Source: an uncultured Sphingomonas sp.
Lineage (GTDB): Bacteria; Pseudomonadota; Alphaproteobacteria; Sphingomonadales; Sphingomonadaceae
Assembly: GCF_902806285.1 (NCBI RefSeq)
Contig: NZ_CADCWA010000039.1
Coordinates: 24,779-88,778, forward strand
DNA length: 64,000 bases
Direction: 5' to 3'
Shown here piece by piece: positions 18,669-33,745 of the stretch. The translations under genes were made by a program, and so were the position numbers. Every line of letters begins with the position of its first letter. Position 1 is the stretch's first letter. Under the pieces are notes generated by a model that did no database searches, was not told the origin of the DNA, and saw only the letters and a program-made list of their open reading frames with translations.

Positions 18669-19553
18669 TTAGATCGGCTCGCCCGAAAGCCGCTGGCAGA
18701 TGAGGTCGAGCTGGTCGAGGGCGGTGAAGTGGAGCGTTACCGTACCGGCCGAACCGCTGGTCGCGACCCTCACCTTGAGGCCAAGGAGATCGCCCAGCTG
18801 CCGCTCCAATGCGGCGATGTCGGCGTTCCCGGTGCTGTCAGGGCTCGCTCGACCCGAACGTCGTTCGGAAATCCCCGCCGCGCCAGGCCTCTCCCGTCGC
18901 GCCAAAGCTTCCGCCTGGCGGACCGACAGTCCCTGATTGACGATCTCGCGGGCCAGCGCTTCAGGGTCGGGAGCGGCAGCGATCGCGCGCGCATGCCCCA
19001 TGTTGATGTCTCCGCGCAGCAGGGCTTGCCGCACGGGCTCGGGAAGGTCGCGCAAGCGCAAGAGGTTGGCGACGTGGCTGCGCGACTTGCCGATCAGGCG
19101 GGCCAGGTCGTCCTGGCTGTGCCCGTAGGTCGAGATCAGCTGCGCATAGGCGTCCGCCTCTTCCAGCGCGTTGAGGTCCTCGCGCTGGATGTTCTCGATC
19201 AGTGCGATCTCGGCAACCGCGGCGTTGTCGAAGGAGCGGATGATCGCCGGAATGCGATTGAGCTGCGCCCGCTGCGCCGCCCGCCAGCGCCGCTCGCCCG
19301 CGACAAGCTCATAAGCGCCTGCACCGGTTTCCCGAACCAGGATGGGCTGCAGCACGCCGCGCGCGCGGATCGAGTCCGCCAATTCGGCGATCGCCTCCTC
19401 CACGAAGATGCGGCGCGGCTGATGGGGATTGGGCCGGATCGCCGCGACGTCGATCTCCCGCACGCCGCCCGACGGCGTCTCCGCTTCCACCGGAGCATCG
19501 CCCAACAACGCCGACAAGCCGCGGCCCAGTCCTCGTGTTCGAAGCTCGCTCAT
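18669..19553 (-). CDS. parB: chromosome-partitioning protein ParB
   Basis: 294 aa from the ATG at 19553, which overlaps the parA stop; the longer ORF (19958) is parA in another frame. The N-terminus RGLGRGLSALLGD is the ParA-interacting peptide. The CTP-binding ParB/Srx fold follows with IRPNPHQPRRIF and GERRWRAAQRA, then the HTH (DDLARLIGKSRSHVANLLRL) that reads parS. The C-terminal dimerisation segment ends TLHFTALDQLDLICQRL. It loads as a CTP clamp at parS; three parS-like sites lie in this window. Confidence 0.97.
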   Translation of the reverse strand: MSELRTRGLGRGLSALLGDAPVEAETPSGGVREIDVAAIRPNPHQPRRIFVEEAIAELADSIRARGVLQPILVRETGAGAYELVAGERRWRAAQRAQLNRIPAIIRSFDNAAVAEIALIENIQREDLNALEEADAYAQLISTYGHSQDDLARLIGKSRSHVANLLRLRDLPEPVRQALLRGDINMGHARAIAAAPDPEALAREIVNQGLSVRQAEALARRERPGAAGISERRSGRASPDSTGNADIAALERQLGDLLGLKVRVATSGSAGTVTLHFTALDQLDLICQRLSGEPI

Positions 19554-20332
19554 GCGGCTTGCGCCGGCCGGGGCAGGCGGCCCATCAGTTCCTTGGCGAG
19601 CCGGACATAGGCTTCGCTCCCGGAACAGCGCAGGTCGTAGATCAAGGCCGGCAAGCCGTGGCTCGGTGCTTCGGACAGCCGGACGTTGCGGGGCACCACC
19701 GTTTCGAACACCGCCGAGCCGAGGCAGGCACGGACATCCTCGCTGACCTGCCGCGACAGGCTGTTGCGGCGATCGAACATCGTCAACGCAACGCCGAGGA
19801 TCGCGAGCTCGGGATTGAAGCGGGTGCGGATGCGCTCCACCGTCTGCAACAATTGGCTGAGCCCCTCCAGCGCGAAGAACTCGCATTGCAGCGGGACCAG
19901 CAACTGCTTCGCGGCGATCAGGGCGTTGACGGTCAGGAGGCCGAGCGAAGGCGGACAATCGATCAGGCAGATGTCCCAGCGCCCCGGCGTCGCGCGATCG
20001 AAGCTGTCGGCCAGCCGGTGGGTTCGCCGCTCGAAATCGACCAGCTCGACTTCAGCGCCCGAAAGGTCCTGGGTTGCCGGGACGACCTCCAGCCGCGGGA
20101 CGCGCGTGAAGACGGCCGCTTCCTCGAGGCTCGCTTCGCCGAGCAGCAGGTCGTAGCTCGAGCGCTCCCGGACGGCATGGGCTACGCCGAGCCCGGTGGA
20201 CGCGTTACCCTGCGGGTCGAGATCGACCAGCAGCACGCGCCAGCCGGTGGCGGCGAGCGCCGTCGCAAGGTTGATGGCGGTGGTGGTCTTGCCGACGCCG
20301 CCCTTCTGGTTCGCGACTGCAATGCGGATCAT
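19550..20332 (-). CDS. parA: chromosome-partitioning ATPase ParA
   Basis: 260 aa. The deviant Walker A KGGVGKTTTAINLATAL is at residues 10-26, Walker A' LLVDLDPQGNAST follows, and Walker B is WDICLIDCPPSLG. ParA forms a nucleoid-bound gradient that pulls ParB-parS complexes, segregating the origin region. Its start overlaps the rsmG stop and its stop overlaps the parB start, so mnmG-rsmG-parA-parB form one tightly coupled minus-strand operon. Confidence 0.97.
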   Translation of the reverse strand: MIRIAVANQKGGVGKTTTAINLATALAATGWRVLLVDLDPQGNASTGLGVAHAVRERSSYDLLLGEASLEEAAVFTRVPRLEVVPATQDLSGAEVELVDFERRTHRLADSFDRATPGRWDICLIDCPPSLGLLTVNALIAAKQLLVPLQCEFFALEGLSQLLQTVERIRTRFNPELAILGVALTMFDRRNSLSRQVSEDVRACLGSAVFETVVPRNVRLSEAPSHGLPALIYDLRCSGSEAYVRLAKELMGRLPRPAQAA

Positions 20333-20952
20333 CTGCCGGTCCCACCCTTTGGCTTCACGCCGTCCGCGACCAGCACCACCGCCTCGGGGTCGGTGATGCT
20401 GGCCTCAGTCCGGAAGCGACCTTGCCACGCGCGGCGCGCGTCCGCCAGTTCCTTTGCGCCATTCCGGCCTTTGGGCAGGATCCAGCGTGTGCCGCCGTGC
20501 GCCAGGTGGAGGGTCATGGCGAACAGCCGGTCGACAGGGGCTACGGCGCGGGCGGTGACCACATCGAAGCTGCCTTGCAGTCGCTCGACCTTGTGGGGGA
20601 AAACTTCGCTATTCGGAAGGTCGAGCTGTTCGATGCAGCGTTGCAGGAAATCGGCTCGGAGCTTACGTGGCTCGACCAGCATCATCGATTTGCCCGCGAG
20701 AATCGACAGAACGATACCGGGGAAGCCGGCTCCAGAGCCTACATCGACCCAGCGGCCACCTTCCGCGGCACCGAAGCGCATCAACTGAGCGCTGTCGATC
20801 AGGTGCCTATCCCACAGCGTCTCCAGGGTCGAGCGAGCGATGAGGTTCTGCCGCTCGTTCTCCTCCCGGAGCATGGTAACGAAAGCTTCTACTTTCTCGA
20901 GTGTTTCACGTGGAACATCTTGGCCGGCAGCTTCCGCGAGCGCGTTAATCAT
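20329..20952 (-). CDS. rsmG: 16S rRNA (guanine-527-N7)-methyltransferase RsmG
   Basis: 207 aa. RsmG (GidB) methylates G527 of 16S rRNA using SAM. The SAM-binding loop is [18 protein letters not shown], with [15 protein letters not shown] after it and [15 protein letters not shown] downstream. The N-terminus VETFVTM-like helix and [10 protein letters not shown] match the family. Codons near the 5' end contain a full parS palindrome (20902-20917). Overlaps: its ATG with the mnmG stop and its stop with parA. Confidence 0.96.
20902..20917. other. parS centromere-like site (inside rsmG)
   Basis: TGTTTCACGTGGAACA matches the alphaproteobacterial parS form at all 16 positions as I know it (TGTTTCACGTGGAACA, near the bacterial consensus TGTTNCACGTGAAACA). 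It is located in the first 20 codons of rsmG, about 570 bases upstream of the parA start. ParB should nucleate here. Confidence 0.88.
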
Positions 20953-22669: not shown

Positions 22670-22685
22670 TGTTCCACGTGGAACC
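22670..22685. other. parS centromere-like site (mnmE-mnmG gap)
   Basis: TGTTCCACGTGGAACC contains a perfect 14-bp palindrome GTTCCACGTGGAAC and differs from TGTTCCACGTGGAACA only at the last base. It lies in the 58-base gap between the mnmE stop and the mnmG start, 1.75 kb from the site in rsmG. Confidence 0.82.
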
Positions 22686-26244: not shown

Positions 26245-26706
26245 TCAGAACGGCTTAACGATCACCAACACGACGATCACTGCCGTAGCGATCCCTGGAA
26301 TCTCGTTCATGATCCGCAGGGTGCGGTTCTCCAGCGGTCGCGCGCCCTTGGCGAGCTTGCGGCCGTAGGCGGACAGCCAGCCCTGGTAACCCGTAAGCAG
26401 GACCACCAACGCCAGCTTGGCGTGGAACCAGCCCTGGGCGAAGGCGCCGATATTGAGCGCCAGGGCAAGGCCCAGCACCCACACGATCAGCATCGCAGGC
26501 CCCAGAATGATCGACCGCGCACGGCCTTCCCGTTCGATCCAGGCGCGGTCCTCGGCGGAGCCCGGCGCGGTGGCATGGTGGTAGACGAAAAAGCGCGGCA
26601 ACAGGAACAAGCCGGCGATCCAGAAAATGACAAAGGTCAGGTGCGCGGCTTTCACCCACAGGTAGGCGCCGCCCAAAAAGCCGACATATTGGTCCAAGCC
26701 GGTCAC
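26245..26706 (-). CDS. hemJ: protoporphyrinogen IX oxidase HemJ
   Basis: 153 aa from a GTG at 26706 overlapping the hemE stop; the track ORF from 27669 is hemE in another frame. Four predicted membrane helices (WVKAAHLTFVIFWIAGLFLLPRFF; ILGPAMLIVWVLGLALAL; KLALVVLLTGYQGWL; AVIVVLVIVKPF) and the conserved histidine in KAAHL plus YHHA fit HemJ (UPF0093). HemJ oxidises protoporphyrinogen IX in bacteria lacking HemG/HemY. The hemE-hemJ-rho order is the standard alphaproteobacterial one next to oriC. Confidence 0.92.
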   Translation of the reverse strand: MTGLDQYVGFLGGAYLWVKAAHLTFVIFWIAGLFLLPRFFVYHHATAPGSAEDRAWIEREGRARSIILGPAMLIVWVLGLALALNIGAFAQGWFHAKLALVVLLTGYQGWLSAYGRKLAKGARPLENRTLRIMNEIPGIATAVIVVLVIVKPF

Positions 26707-27752
26707 AAGCCCTTCCCTAGCAGCCGTAGCATGCTTTCGACATGGGCGATCGGCGTCGTCTGCCCGATGCCATGGCCCAGGTTGAAGATGTGCGGCCGCC
26801 CGGCGAGCGCGTGGAGGATGCGCTGGACGGCGAGCTCCAGCGGCTCGCCGCCGGCGATCAGGGCCAGCGGGTCGAGGTTGCCCTGGACCGGCAGGCCTTC
26901 GGGCAGGACCGAATCGGCCCACACCGGGTCCACCGTCTCGTCGAGGCCAACTGCGTCCACCCCGGTCTCGCGGGCGTAAGGGGCGAGCTTGCCCCCGGCG
27001 CCCTTGGGAAAGCCGATGATCTTGAGCTCCGGCCGTTCGGTGCGAAGCCGCTCGACCAGGCGCGTGGTGGGCGCGATCACCCAGCGCTCGAACTCGCTTG
27101 GGGCAAGGCTGCCCGACCAGCTGTCGAACAGCTGCACCGCGTCCACTCCGGCGTCGATCTGGCCCAGGAGGTAGGTGAGGGTGGTCTCCTCGATCGCCTC
27201 GATGATCGCGGCCAAGCGGCCCGGATCCCGATAGGCGAGCTGACGCGCCTCGGCCTGCTCGCGGCTGCCCTCGCCGGCGACCATGTAGGTAGCGACGGTC
27301 CATGGGCTGCCCGCGAAGCCGAGGAAGGTGGTGGAAGGGGACAGCTCGGCCCGCACCCGCCGGACGGTCTCGTAGATGGGCTGTAGCCGATCCATCCGCG
27401 GCTGGAAGTCGTCCAGCGAAGCATTGGTGAGCGGCGGTGCCAGCCGCGGGCCTTCCCCGGCGACGAAGCTCAGTTCCTGCCCGAGCGCGTGGGGAACGAT
27501 CAGAATGTCCGAGAAAAGGATCGCCGCGTCGAGCGGAAAGCGGCGCAGCGGCTGCAGGGTGATCTCGGCCGCGGCCGCGGGATCGTAGACGAGGTCGAGA
27601 AAGCCCCCCTTGTGCGCGCGCAGCTCGCGGTACTCGGGCAGGTAGCGCCCGGCCTGACGCATCATCCACAGCGGCGGCGGGTCGCGCCTTTGACCGGCCA
27701 GCACGGCCAGCACGGGTTTGTCCGCCGTTCGTTCGGAAGGCTCGGGGTCCAC
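26703..27752 (-). CDS. hemE: uroporphyrinogen decarboxylase
   Basis: 349 aa from a GTG at 27752 (VDPEPSERTADKPVLAVL); the track's extension to 27926 crosses the putative origin. HemE removes four acetate carboxylates from uroporphyrinogen III. Signature PLWMMRQAGRYLPEYRE is at the start, FSDILIVPHALG carries the catalytic aspartate region, and GFPKGAGG and NLGHGIGQTTPIAHV close the barrel. In Caulobacter and many relatives the replication origin lies directly upstream of hemE, as appears here. Confidence 0.97.
   Translation of the reverse strand: MDPEPSERTADKPVLAVLAGQRRDPPPLWMMRQAGRYLPEYRELRAHKGGFLDLVYDPAAAAEITLQPLRRFPLDAAILFSDILIVPHALGQELSFVAGEGPRLAPPLTNASLDDFQPRMDRLQPIYETVRRVRAELSPSTTFLGFAGSPWTVATYMVAGEGSREQAEARQLAYRDPGRLAAIIEAIEETTLTYLLGQIDAGVDAVQLFDSWSGSLAPSEFERWVIAPTTRLVERLRTERPELKIIGFPKGAGGKLAPYARETGVDAVGLDETVDPVWADSVLPEGLPVQGNLDPLALIAGGEPLELAVQRILHALAGRPHIFNLGHGIGQTTPIAHVESMLRLLGKGL
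27662..27670 (+). promoter_or_regulatory. DnaA-box-like site in the 5' end of hemE
   Basis: TCATCCACA differs from the DnaA consensus TTATCCACA at one position. It lies within hemE codons 28-31, 83 bases inside the gene from the putative origin gap. Confidence 0.4.
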
Positions 27753-28046
27753 CCTTTTTCTTCTCTTTCTTATAGATTCTTTAAAAGGATGATGAAGGTA
27801 GGTGGGCGGCGGGAGGTGGGGAATAGAGCCCCCTTCCGGACTTGCCAACAGGCGGATGGAGCCCGCTCCGGAGGACTCGCGGCGAGTCGGGTTCGGCTGC
27901 TCCCGCAATCCACAGCCTGGGGGCAAGCGCCAGCCGCCGTGGATGGAATTCCGGATGATCGCCGCGGGTGGCTGGGCAGCGGTGGCATTTGGATCGTGCC
28001 CAAGCCCGCGCTAGGGCAAGCCACCGGCTTTTCCACAGGAACATCG
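27753..28046. other. putative chromosomal replication origin (oriC) between hemE and maf
   Basis: The 294-base gap between divergent hemE and maf holds no credible gene. It has an AT-rich pyrimidine tract at 27753-27786 (CCCTTTTTCTTCTC, then TTATAGATTCTTTAAAA) suited to unwinding, and DnaA-box-like sites: CAATCCACA (27906-27914) and TTTTCCACA (28029-28037), with TCATCCACA just inside hemE. All nine genes to the left run left and all nine annotated to the right, to 33.1 kb, run right, away from this point. parABS is within 10 kb. Caulobacter's origin sits at the same hemE junction. Confidence 0.72.
28029..28037 (+). promoter_or_regulatory. DnaA-box-like site before maf
   Basis: TTTTCCACA is one mismatch from TTATCCACA. 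It ends nine bases before the maf ATG, at the right edge of the putative origin. Confidence 0.5.
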
Positions 28047-28631
28047 ATGGACCTGCTGCTTGCTTCCACCTCGCCGATCCGGGGAACGCTGCTGGCCAAC
28101 GCCGGCGTGCCCCATGGCGCGGTGCCGCCGGAGGTTGATGAGGCGTCGGCTAAGGCGGGATTCACCGGCAGCGATGCCGAGCTCGCGTGCACGCTGGCCG
28201 AGGCCAAAGCGCTGAGCGTCGGCCGCAACCATCCCGGCGCCCTGGTGATCGGCAGCGACAGCATCGTCTCTGTGGGCGGCCGCCGCTTCAGCAAGCCGGG
28301 CGGCAGAGGGGAAGCGGCGGAGCACCTCCGCTTCTTCTCGGGCCGGACCATGCAGCTCACCAGCGCGGTCGTCCTCTCTCGGGATGGAGCGGTGGAATGG
28401 CGGCACGCCTCCGAGGCGCGGCTGCAGGTGCGGCCGCTGGGGGAGGCGTTCATCGAGACCTATCTGGAGGCCGACTGGCCCGAGGTCAGCTACTGCGTGG
28501 GGGTGTTCAGGCTGGAAGGCCCGGGCGTGCAGCTGTTCTCGGAGATCGAAGGCGACCACTTCACCGTTCTCGGCCTGCCCTTGCTGCCGCTGCTGGAAGC
28601 GCTGCGCGACCGGGGCGTGCTGCCGTCATGA
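28047..28631 (+). CDS. maf: Maf-family nucleotide pyrophosphatase
   Basis: 194 aa from the ATG at 28047; the upstream frame from 27489 is antisense to hemE and is rejected. Maf proteins hydrolyse non-canonical or pyrimidine nucleoside triphosphates. Visible: LLLASTSPIRGTLLANAGV at the start, VIGSDSIVSVGGRRFSKPG with the catalytic Asp, FFSGRTMQLTSAVVL, and YCVGVFRLEGPGVQLFSEIEGDHFTVLGLPLLPLL. The GSDSI variant rather than GADTV fits the subgroup found next to the origin in alphaproteobacteria. ATGA overlap with aroE. Confidence 0.92.
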   Translation: MDLLLASTSPIRGTLLANAGVPHGAVPPEVDEASAKAGFTGSDAELACTLAEAKALSVGRNHPGALVIGSDSIVSVGGRRFSKPGGRGEAAEHLRFFSGRTMQLTSAVVLSRDGAVEWRHASEARLQVRPLGEAFIETYLEADWPEVSYCVGVFRLEGPGVQLFSEIEGDHFTVLGLPLLPLLEALRDRGVLPS

Positions 28632-33145: not shown

Positions 33146-33745
33146 TCAAAGCTTGGGGCCGGCCACGGCCGACGCCTTGGCCGGCTTCACCGACTCGAGC
33201 AGCCTTAGCAGCTCCGGGTTGCGGCGATCCTCACTGGCATAGTCGCGCGCGCTGCGGCCGGTGGCGTTGTCCTTGCGATCTGCGTTCGCTCCGGCCTCCA
33301 GCAGCCGCTTCACTACGGGCGTATGGCGCTGCTGCACCGCGATGATCAGCGGGGTCTCGCCGGCGCGGTTGGCGAGGTCGACCCGCGCGCGGCCGCGCAG
33401 AAGCCGGTCGACCGCCTCGACGTCGCCGATGCGCGCCGCCACGATCAACGGGGTGTCGCCGGCCTTGGTCTGGATGTTCGGGTCGGCGCCCTTGCCCAGC
33501 AGGTAGCCCAGATAGGTCCCGTCCCGCCGGGCGGCGACGATGTGCAGCGCCGCCTCGCCCCGCTCATTGCGGAAGTTGACCACCGTGGAGCCATCCGCGC
33601 CGAGCAGTTCCTCGACCTTGGCCCCGTCGCGCTCGCGAACAGCCTGAAGAAAGCCGAGACCGGCCGGAGCATATTGCGCGATTGCCGCGGTTGCGCTCGC
33701 CGCCAGTACCGCTGCCGTCGCCAAACGCCTGGTAAGCTTGTGCAT
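33146..33745 (-). CDS. exported ankyrin-repeat protein
   Basis: 199 aa. A signal peptide ends near AIAQYA (residue 23). Four ankyrin-type repeats follow, for example RGEAALHIVAARRDGTYLGYLL, AGDTPLIVAARIGDVEAVDRLL and AGETPLIIAVQQRHTPVVKRLL. Ankyrin repeats bind proteins; as an exported protein it probably acts in the periplasm. No enzymatic domain. The partner is unknown. It is divergent from the YcgN gene with 59 bases between the starts. Confidence 0.9.
   Translation of the reverse strand: MHKLTRRLATAAVLAASATAAIAQYAPAGLGFLQAVRERDGAKVEELLGADGSTVVNFRNERGEAALHIVAARRDGTYLGYLLGKGADPNIQTKAGDTPLIVAARIGDVEAVDRLLRGRARVDLANRAGETPLIIAVQQRHTPVVKRLLEAGANADRKDNATGRSARDYASEDRRNPELLRLLESVKPAKASAVAGPKL

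Follow-up and report, generated by a model that had tools for sequence, protein, structure and literature searches.

The 294-bp gap between hemE and maf in the uncultured Sphingomonas sp. studied here is very probably the chromosomal origin of replication (oriC), as judged from comparison with its relatives. The gap lies in a stretch of 64,000 nucleotides (hereafter the window) within contig 39 of a draft genome of 2.5 Mb in 203 contigs, the right end of the window being also the end of the contig. A likely oriC between hemE and maf had been put forward in the first-pass annotation. This proposal is supported by a switch in the polarity of KOPS octamers in congeneric chromosomes, by a dif-like site located opposite hemE, and by the conserved positions of the DnaA boxes, of the AT-rich tract and of the hemE promoter. 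Overall, this would be an ordinary origin, located where one is expected, with one mild oddity, the loss of the COG1806 gene in all congeners examined. The nearest named relatives are Sphingomonas sp. BN140010 records and, more distantly, a Sphingomicrobium MAG; we infer Sphingomicrobium as the genus name of the congeners.

In the proposed mechanism, DnaA would bind the three boxes of the gap, the AT-rich tract would open and two forks would depart in opposite directions (Table 1). By analogy with established ParABS biology, ParB bound to the nearby parS sites would segregate the new origins. As in Caulobacter, firing is probably tuned by GANTC methylation and by leftward transcription from the hemE promoter within the gap.

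Table 1. Predicted features of the hemE-maf region (window coordinates).
Feature	Position	Strand	Basis or remark
parB and parA	18669..20332	-	Profile match
parS-like site TGTTTCACGTGGAACA	20902..20917		1 mismatch
parS-like site TGTTCCACGTGGAACC	22670..22685		3 mismatches
hemE	26703..27752	-	URO-D, E 5e-108; likely GTG start at 27752, ORF open to 27926
hemE-maf intergenic region, predicted oriC	27753..28046		Congeneric conservation, box score, KOPS/dif geometry
AT-rich tract, likely unwinding element and hemE 5' leader	27754..27793		AT maximum; same place AT-rich in congeners
Imperfect CtrA-like site TTATAGATTCTTTAA	27770..27784		TTAA-N7-TTAA with one mismatch; contains GANTC; weak
GANTC site (CcrM-type methylation)	27775..27779		Two more at 27874 and 27884
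Likely -10 of hemE promoter, TATTCC	27820..27825	-	Spacer 17; TA position conserved
Likely -35 of hemE promoter, TTGGCA	27843..27848	-	Core of the invariant + strand 9-mer TTGCCAACA at 27842-27850
DnaA box 1 (predicted), CAATCCACA	27906..27914	+	Genus consensus ATTCACAG / ATCCACAG; 28/32 loci
Weak DnaA box 2 (predicted), CCATCCACG	27938..27946	-	Sequence match, congener alignment
DnaA box 3 (predicted), TTTTCCACA	28029..28037	+	Abuts likely maf ribosome-binding site CCACAGGA
maf	28047..28631	+	Maf, E 1.5e-39

Immediately upstream of hemE, the gap forms part of the conserved rho-hemE-(COG1806)-maf cluster. Pfam searches bear out the nine left-running genes that had been announced (hemE, hemJ, rho, TerC, mnmE, mnmG, rsmG, parA and parB), beyond which holA-lptE-leuS run in the opposite direction. 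To the right, eight genes (maf, aroE, coaE, dnaQ, PTS EIIA, DUF1491, a cell-wall hydrolase and mmcB) were found and not nine, an ankyrin-repeat ORF on the minus strand (33146-33745) ending the run after mmcB. The parA-parB pair lies 7-9 kb from the gap and the parS-like sites 5-7 kb; two such sites, both palindromes, occur in the window against 0.03 expected. With 62% GC, the gap falls below the 64-73% range of the window. Its AT-rich tract was correctly picked out from the start, as it is the 40-mer with the highest AT content in the 64-kb window; its 75% AT is reached by only four overlapping 40-mers, all of them in the gap. Thus, the gap contains a candidate for the AT-rich unwinding element expected of a hemE-linked oriC. 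A conserved stretch resembling GATTGATGATGTTGTTGG, noticed by eye beside this tract, was considered as a DnaA-trio but is not put forward as one: the published DnaA-trio motif is a TAG repeat, from which this stretch differs, and no box lies directly behind it.

The two DnaA-box-like sites first reported in the gap were located as boxes 1 and 3. A third one, TCATCCACA, is indeed present just inside hemE (27662-27670), but it is the reverse complement of Leu-Trp-Met-Met codons and is not kept in relatives, and was therefore discarded as a coding coincidence. Sequences within one mismatch of TTWTNCACA number 9 in the window, compared with 12.8 expected, so that boxes alone prove nothing. Such a count, which is not above chance, is what would be seen if the boxes had arisen fortuitously in an ordinary divergent gap, initiation taking place far away, for instance at dnaA. 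This possibility is almost certainly wrong, because it is already contradicted by the KOPS polarity and dif geometry, which centre on hemE; moreover, dnaA is present about 0.8 Mb from hemE in the complete congener G032, and the gap is conserved in relatives. It is on these relatives that the case for an origin rests, given the count in the window.

The comparison set comprised 32 congeneric hemE-maf gaps (two of which, L006 and L111, look like one genome), together with 69 loci from other genera. A weight matrix for the box, trained only on other genera, was applied to a background of 6583 congeneric windows of 300 bp. The gap of the window scores in the top 0.7% of this background, and 31 of the 32 congeneric gaps in the top 1%. 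Furthermore, the highest score of any window belongs to the hemE-maf gap in both G032 (40 stretches sampled) and G021 (20 stretches). The gap of the window has three recognisable boxes, one of them weak; two of them keep their position and spacing across the 32 loci. Three boxes are fewer than in related genera and below the often-quoted four or more, and the earlier description of a compact or degenerate origin is a fair one.

Conservation of individual elements is marked. The 9-mer TTGCCAACA is present in all 32 congeneric loci (0.0 expected), the plus-strand box TTNTCCACA immediately ahead of maf in 30 of them (0.1 expected), and box 1, as ATTCACAG or ATCCACAG, in 28. The same TTNTCCACA box is found at the same place in 43/69 loci of other genera (0.3 expected). 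It should be noted that the expected values, 0.0-0.1 in the genus, come from single-base shuffles and that the loci are related, so that the counts are not independent. Spacing is conserved as well: from TTGCCAACA to the last box, the distance is 186-191 bp in 31/32 congeneric loci and 198 in the remaining one, and from box 1 to the last box it is 120-123 bp in 30/31. The sequence between TTGCCAACA and the last box is variable in the genus despite this near-fixed spacing. Between the hemE promoter and the last box (27842-28037 here), differences in length of about 11 bp are seen in some loci of other genera and hint at helical phasing.

The 9-mer TTGCCAACA is itself best read as the -35 element of a putative hemE promoter. 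The consensus on the hemE strand across congeners is TTGGCAA ... TAa.cCCC, which suggests a promoter, although a generic sigma-70 scan of the gap called none. This raises the question of whether the conserved elements could form only a divergent control region for hemE and maf, the real origin being elsewhere within about 50 kb. The pyrimidine tract would in that case be the hemE leader, box 3 abuts the ribosome-binding site of maf, and the resolution of the polarity switch described below is no better than tens of kb. We nevertheless consider a purely regulatory role very unlikely. In other genera, where COG1806 separates the last box from maf (69/69 loci), many loci retain a box at the corresponding position, which argues that it is not a maf signal. 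In addition, the DnaA-box content of the gap is exceptional and the spacing is fixed over variable sequence. Finally, near-contiguous sampling of G032 between 790 and 1,010 kb yielded no second window with so high a score.

Since the source genome is a draft in 203 contigs, stretches sampled from four complete congeners (G032, G021, G017 and G018) were used in place of a cumulative skew. In these chromosomes, GGGNAGGG octamers (of the FtsK-orienting type, KOPS) mostly point away from hemE on both sides, and the opposite change of sense occurs half-way round. The sense expected for an origin at hemE and a terminus at dif is seen for 307 of the 388 octamers. In single genomes, the best-fit switch falls 8-52 kb from hemE; relative to the direction in which hemE reads, it lies on one side in some genomes and on the other side in others. 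It is 33-52 kb off in G032, G017 and G018; with a 2-log-unit interval on a 10-kb grid, hemE is just outside in G032 and outside in G017 and G018. Thus, the polarity switch places the origin to tens of kb only, not to the gap. The skew check suggested at the outset, run in this way, puts the switch in strand polarity near hemE, to tens of kb, and not far away. GC skew in the congeners goes in the same direction on average but is weak and noisy alone, and in the window's own contig the skew is weak and KOPS octamers number only 10, too few to use.

The predicted terminus lies opposite hemE in the complete congeners, again to tens of kb. An E. coli-like dif 24-mer gave no match with 3 mismatches allowed. 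With a looser half-site pattern, a single, conserved and genus-specific dif-like site of the TGATAATATGTATTATGTAAA type was found in 14/14 congeners (L222 among them), separated from hemE by 0.47-0.50 of the chromosome, chromosome sizes being exact for four and rounded to 0.1 Mb for the others.

Regarding the control of the predicted origin, GANTC sites (CcrM-type) are part of Caulobacter cell-cycle control. Gaps of the genus contain on average 5.03 of these sites compared with 1.11 expected (about fivefold), and the window's own gap 3 compared with 0.98. Genes for a RAMA-domain protein (CcrM-type methylase) and for GcrA are present in the source genome. Taken together, these observations suggest a methylation-linked control as in Caulobacter. 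A strict likeness to the Caulobacter origin, Cori, would also include several CtrA sites (TTAA-N7-TTAA), an IHF site and COG1806 on the other flank. Here, the gap has a single CtrA-like site with one mismatch and no IHF-like site at up to 1 mismatch, and COG1806 is missing at 28037-28047. An Rfam search gave no match.

The kinase-PPPase gene (COG1806, PF03618) is present in the locus in 69/69 cases from other genera and absent from it in the genus; in those loci of other genera that were read, its start closely follows the last box. None was found in the 37 genomes of the genus first searched genome-wide, source genome included, nor in the four genomes of the genus (two of them new) in a family-wide sample. 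In this sample, the gene is found in 190/201 genomes. A few other genera of the family also lack it, among them the genus labelled g43 (3/3 genomes). With COG1806 missing, maf comes directly against the origin: in the window, about 9 bp separate the end of the last box from the maf start and 18 bp separate its beginning from that start, the latter distance being 19-33 bp across the genus. One could imagine that the genus-wide loss put a DnaA box at the ribosome-binding site of maf, so that DnaA occupancy could directly affect expression of maf and aroE-coaE-dnaQ, the origin itself being reduced to some three boxes. We regard such a coupling as unlikely.

A literature search on the origin of replication of the genus, under its inferred name, found nothing; a replication origin is thus fixed for a genus with no earlier match in that search. 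The congeneric loci also provide a clean comparative set: the origin measures about 290 bp, its spacing is rigid and its boxes are few, yet it still organises chromosome polarity. Moreover, they indicate that COG1806, a standard landmark for alphaproteobacterial origins, can be absent.

This is one more predicted hemE-linked origin, a compact one; such origins are known in Caulobacter and predicted for most Sphingomonadaceae (PMC4741004). With the predicted oriC of Sphingopyxis granuli TFA and relatives, it shares the hemE cluster, the DnaA boxes and the AT-rich element (PMC4741004), and the TTNTCCACA box has a similar offset in the 43 of 69 loci of other genera. However, COG1806 is absent here, maf abuts and the boxes are fewer and weaker. 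Initiation at the hemE junction, invoked in the first-pass annotation, is established for Caulobacter, where the C. crescentus Cori is located between hemE and COG1806 (PMC1914354). Common to Cori and the present gap are the hemE flank, an AT-rich tract of about 40 bp, DnaA boxes, GANTC sites and hemE transcription outward from the origin. In contrast to Cori, the present origin is shorter, with one imperfect CtrA-like site, no IHF-like site and no COG1806 flank. Wolbachia, Ehrlichia and Anaplasma offer a parallel, since their origins keep the hemE flank and have another flank unlike that of Caulobacter, with COG1253 in place of COG1806 in Wolbachia and relatives (PMC1914354). There, a rearrangement brought in COG1253, whereas here COG1806 is missing and maf thereby lies beside the origin.
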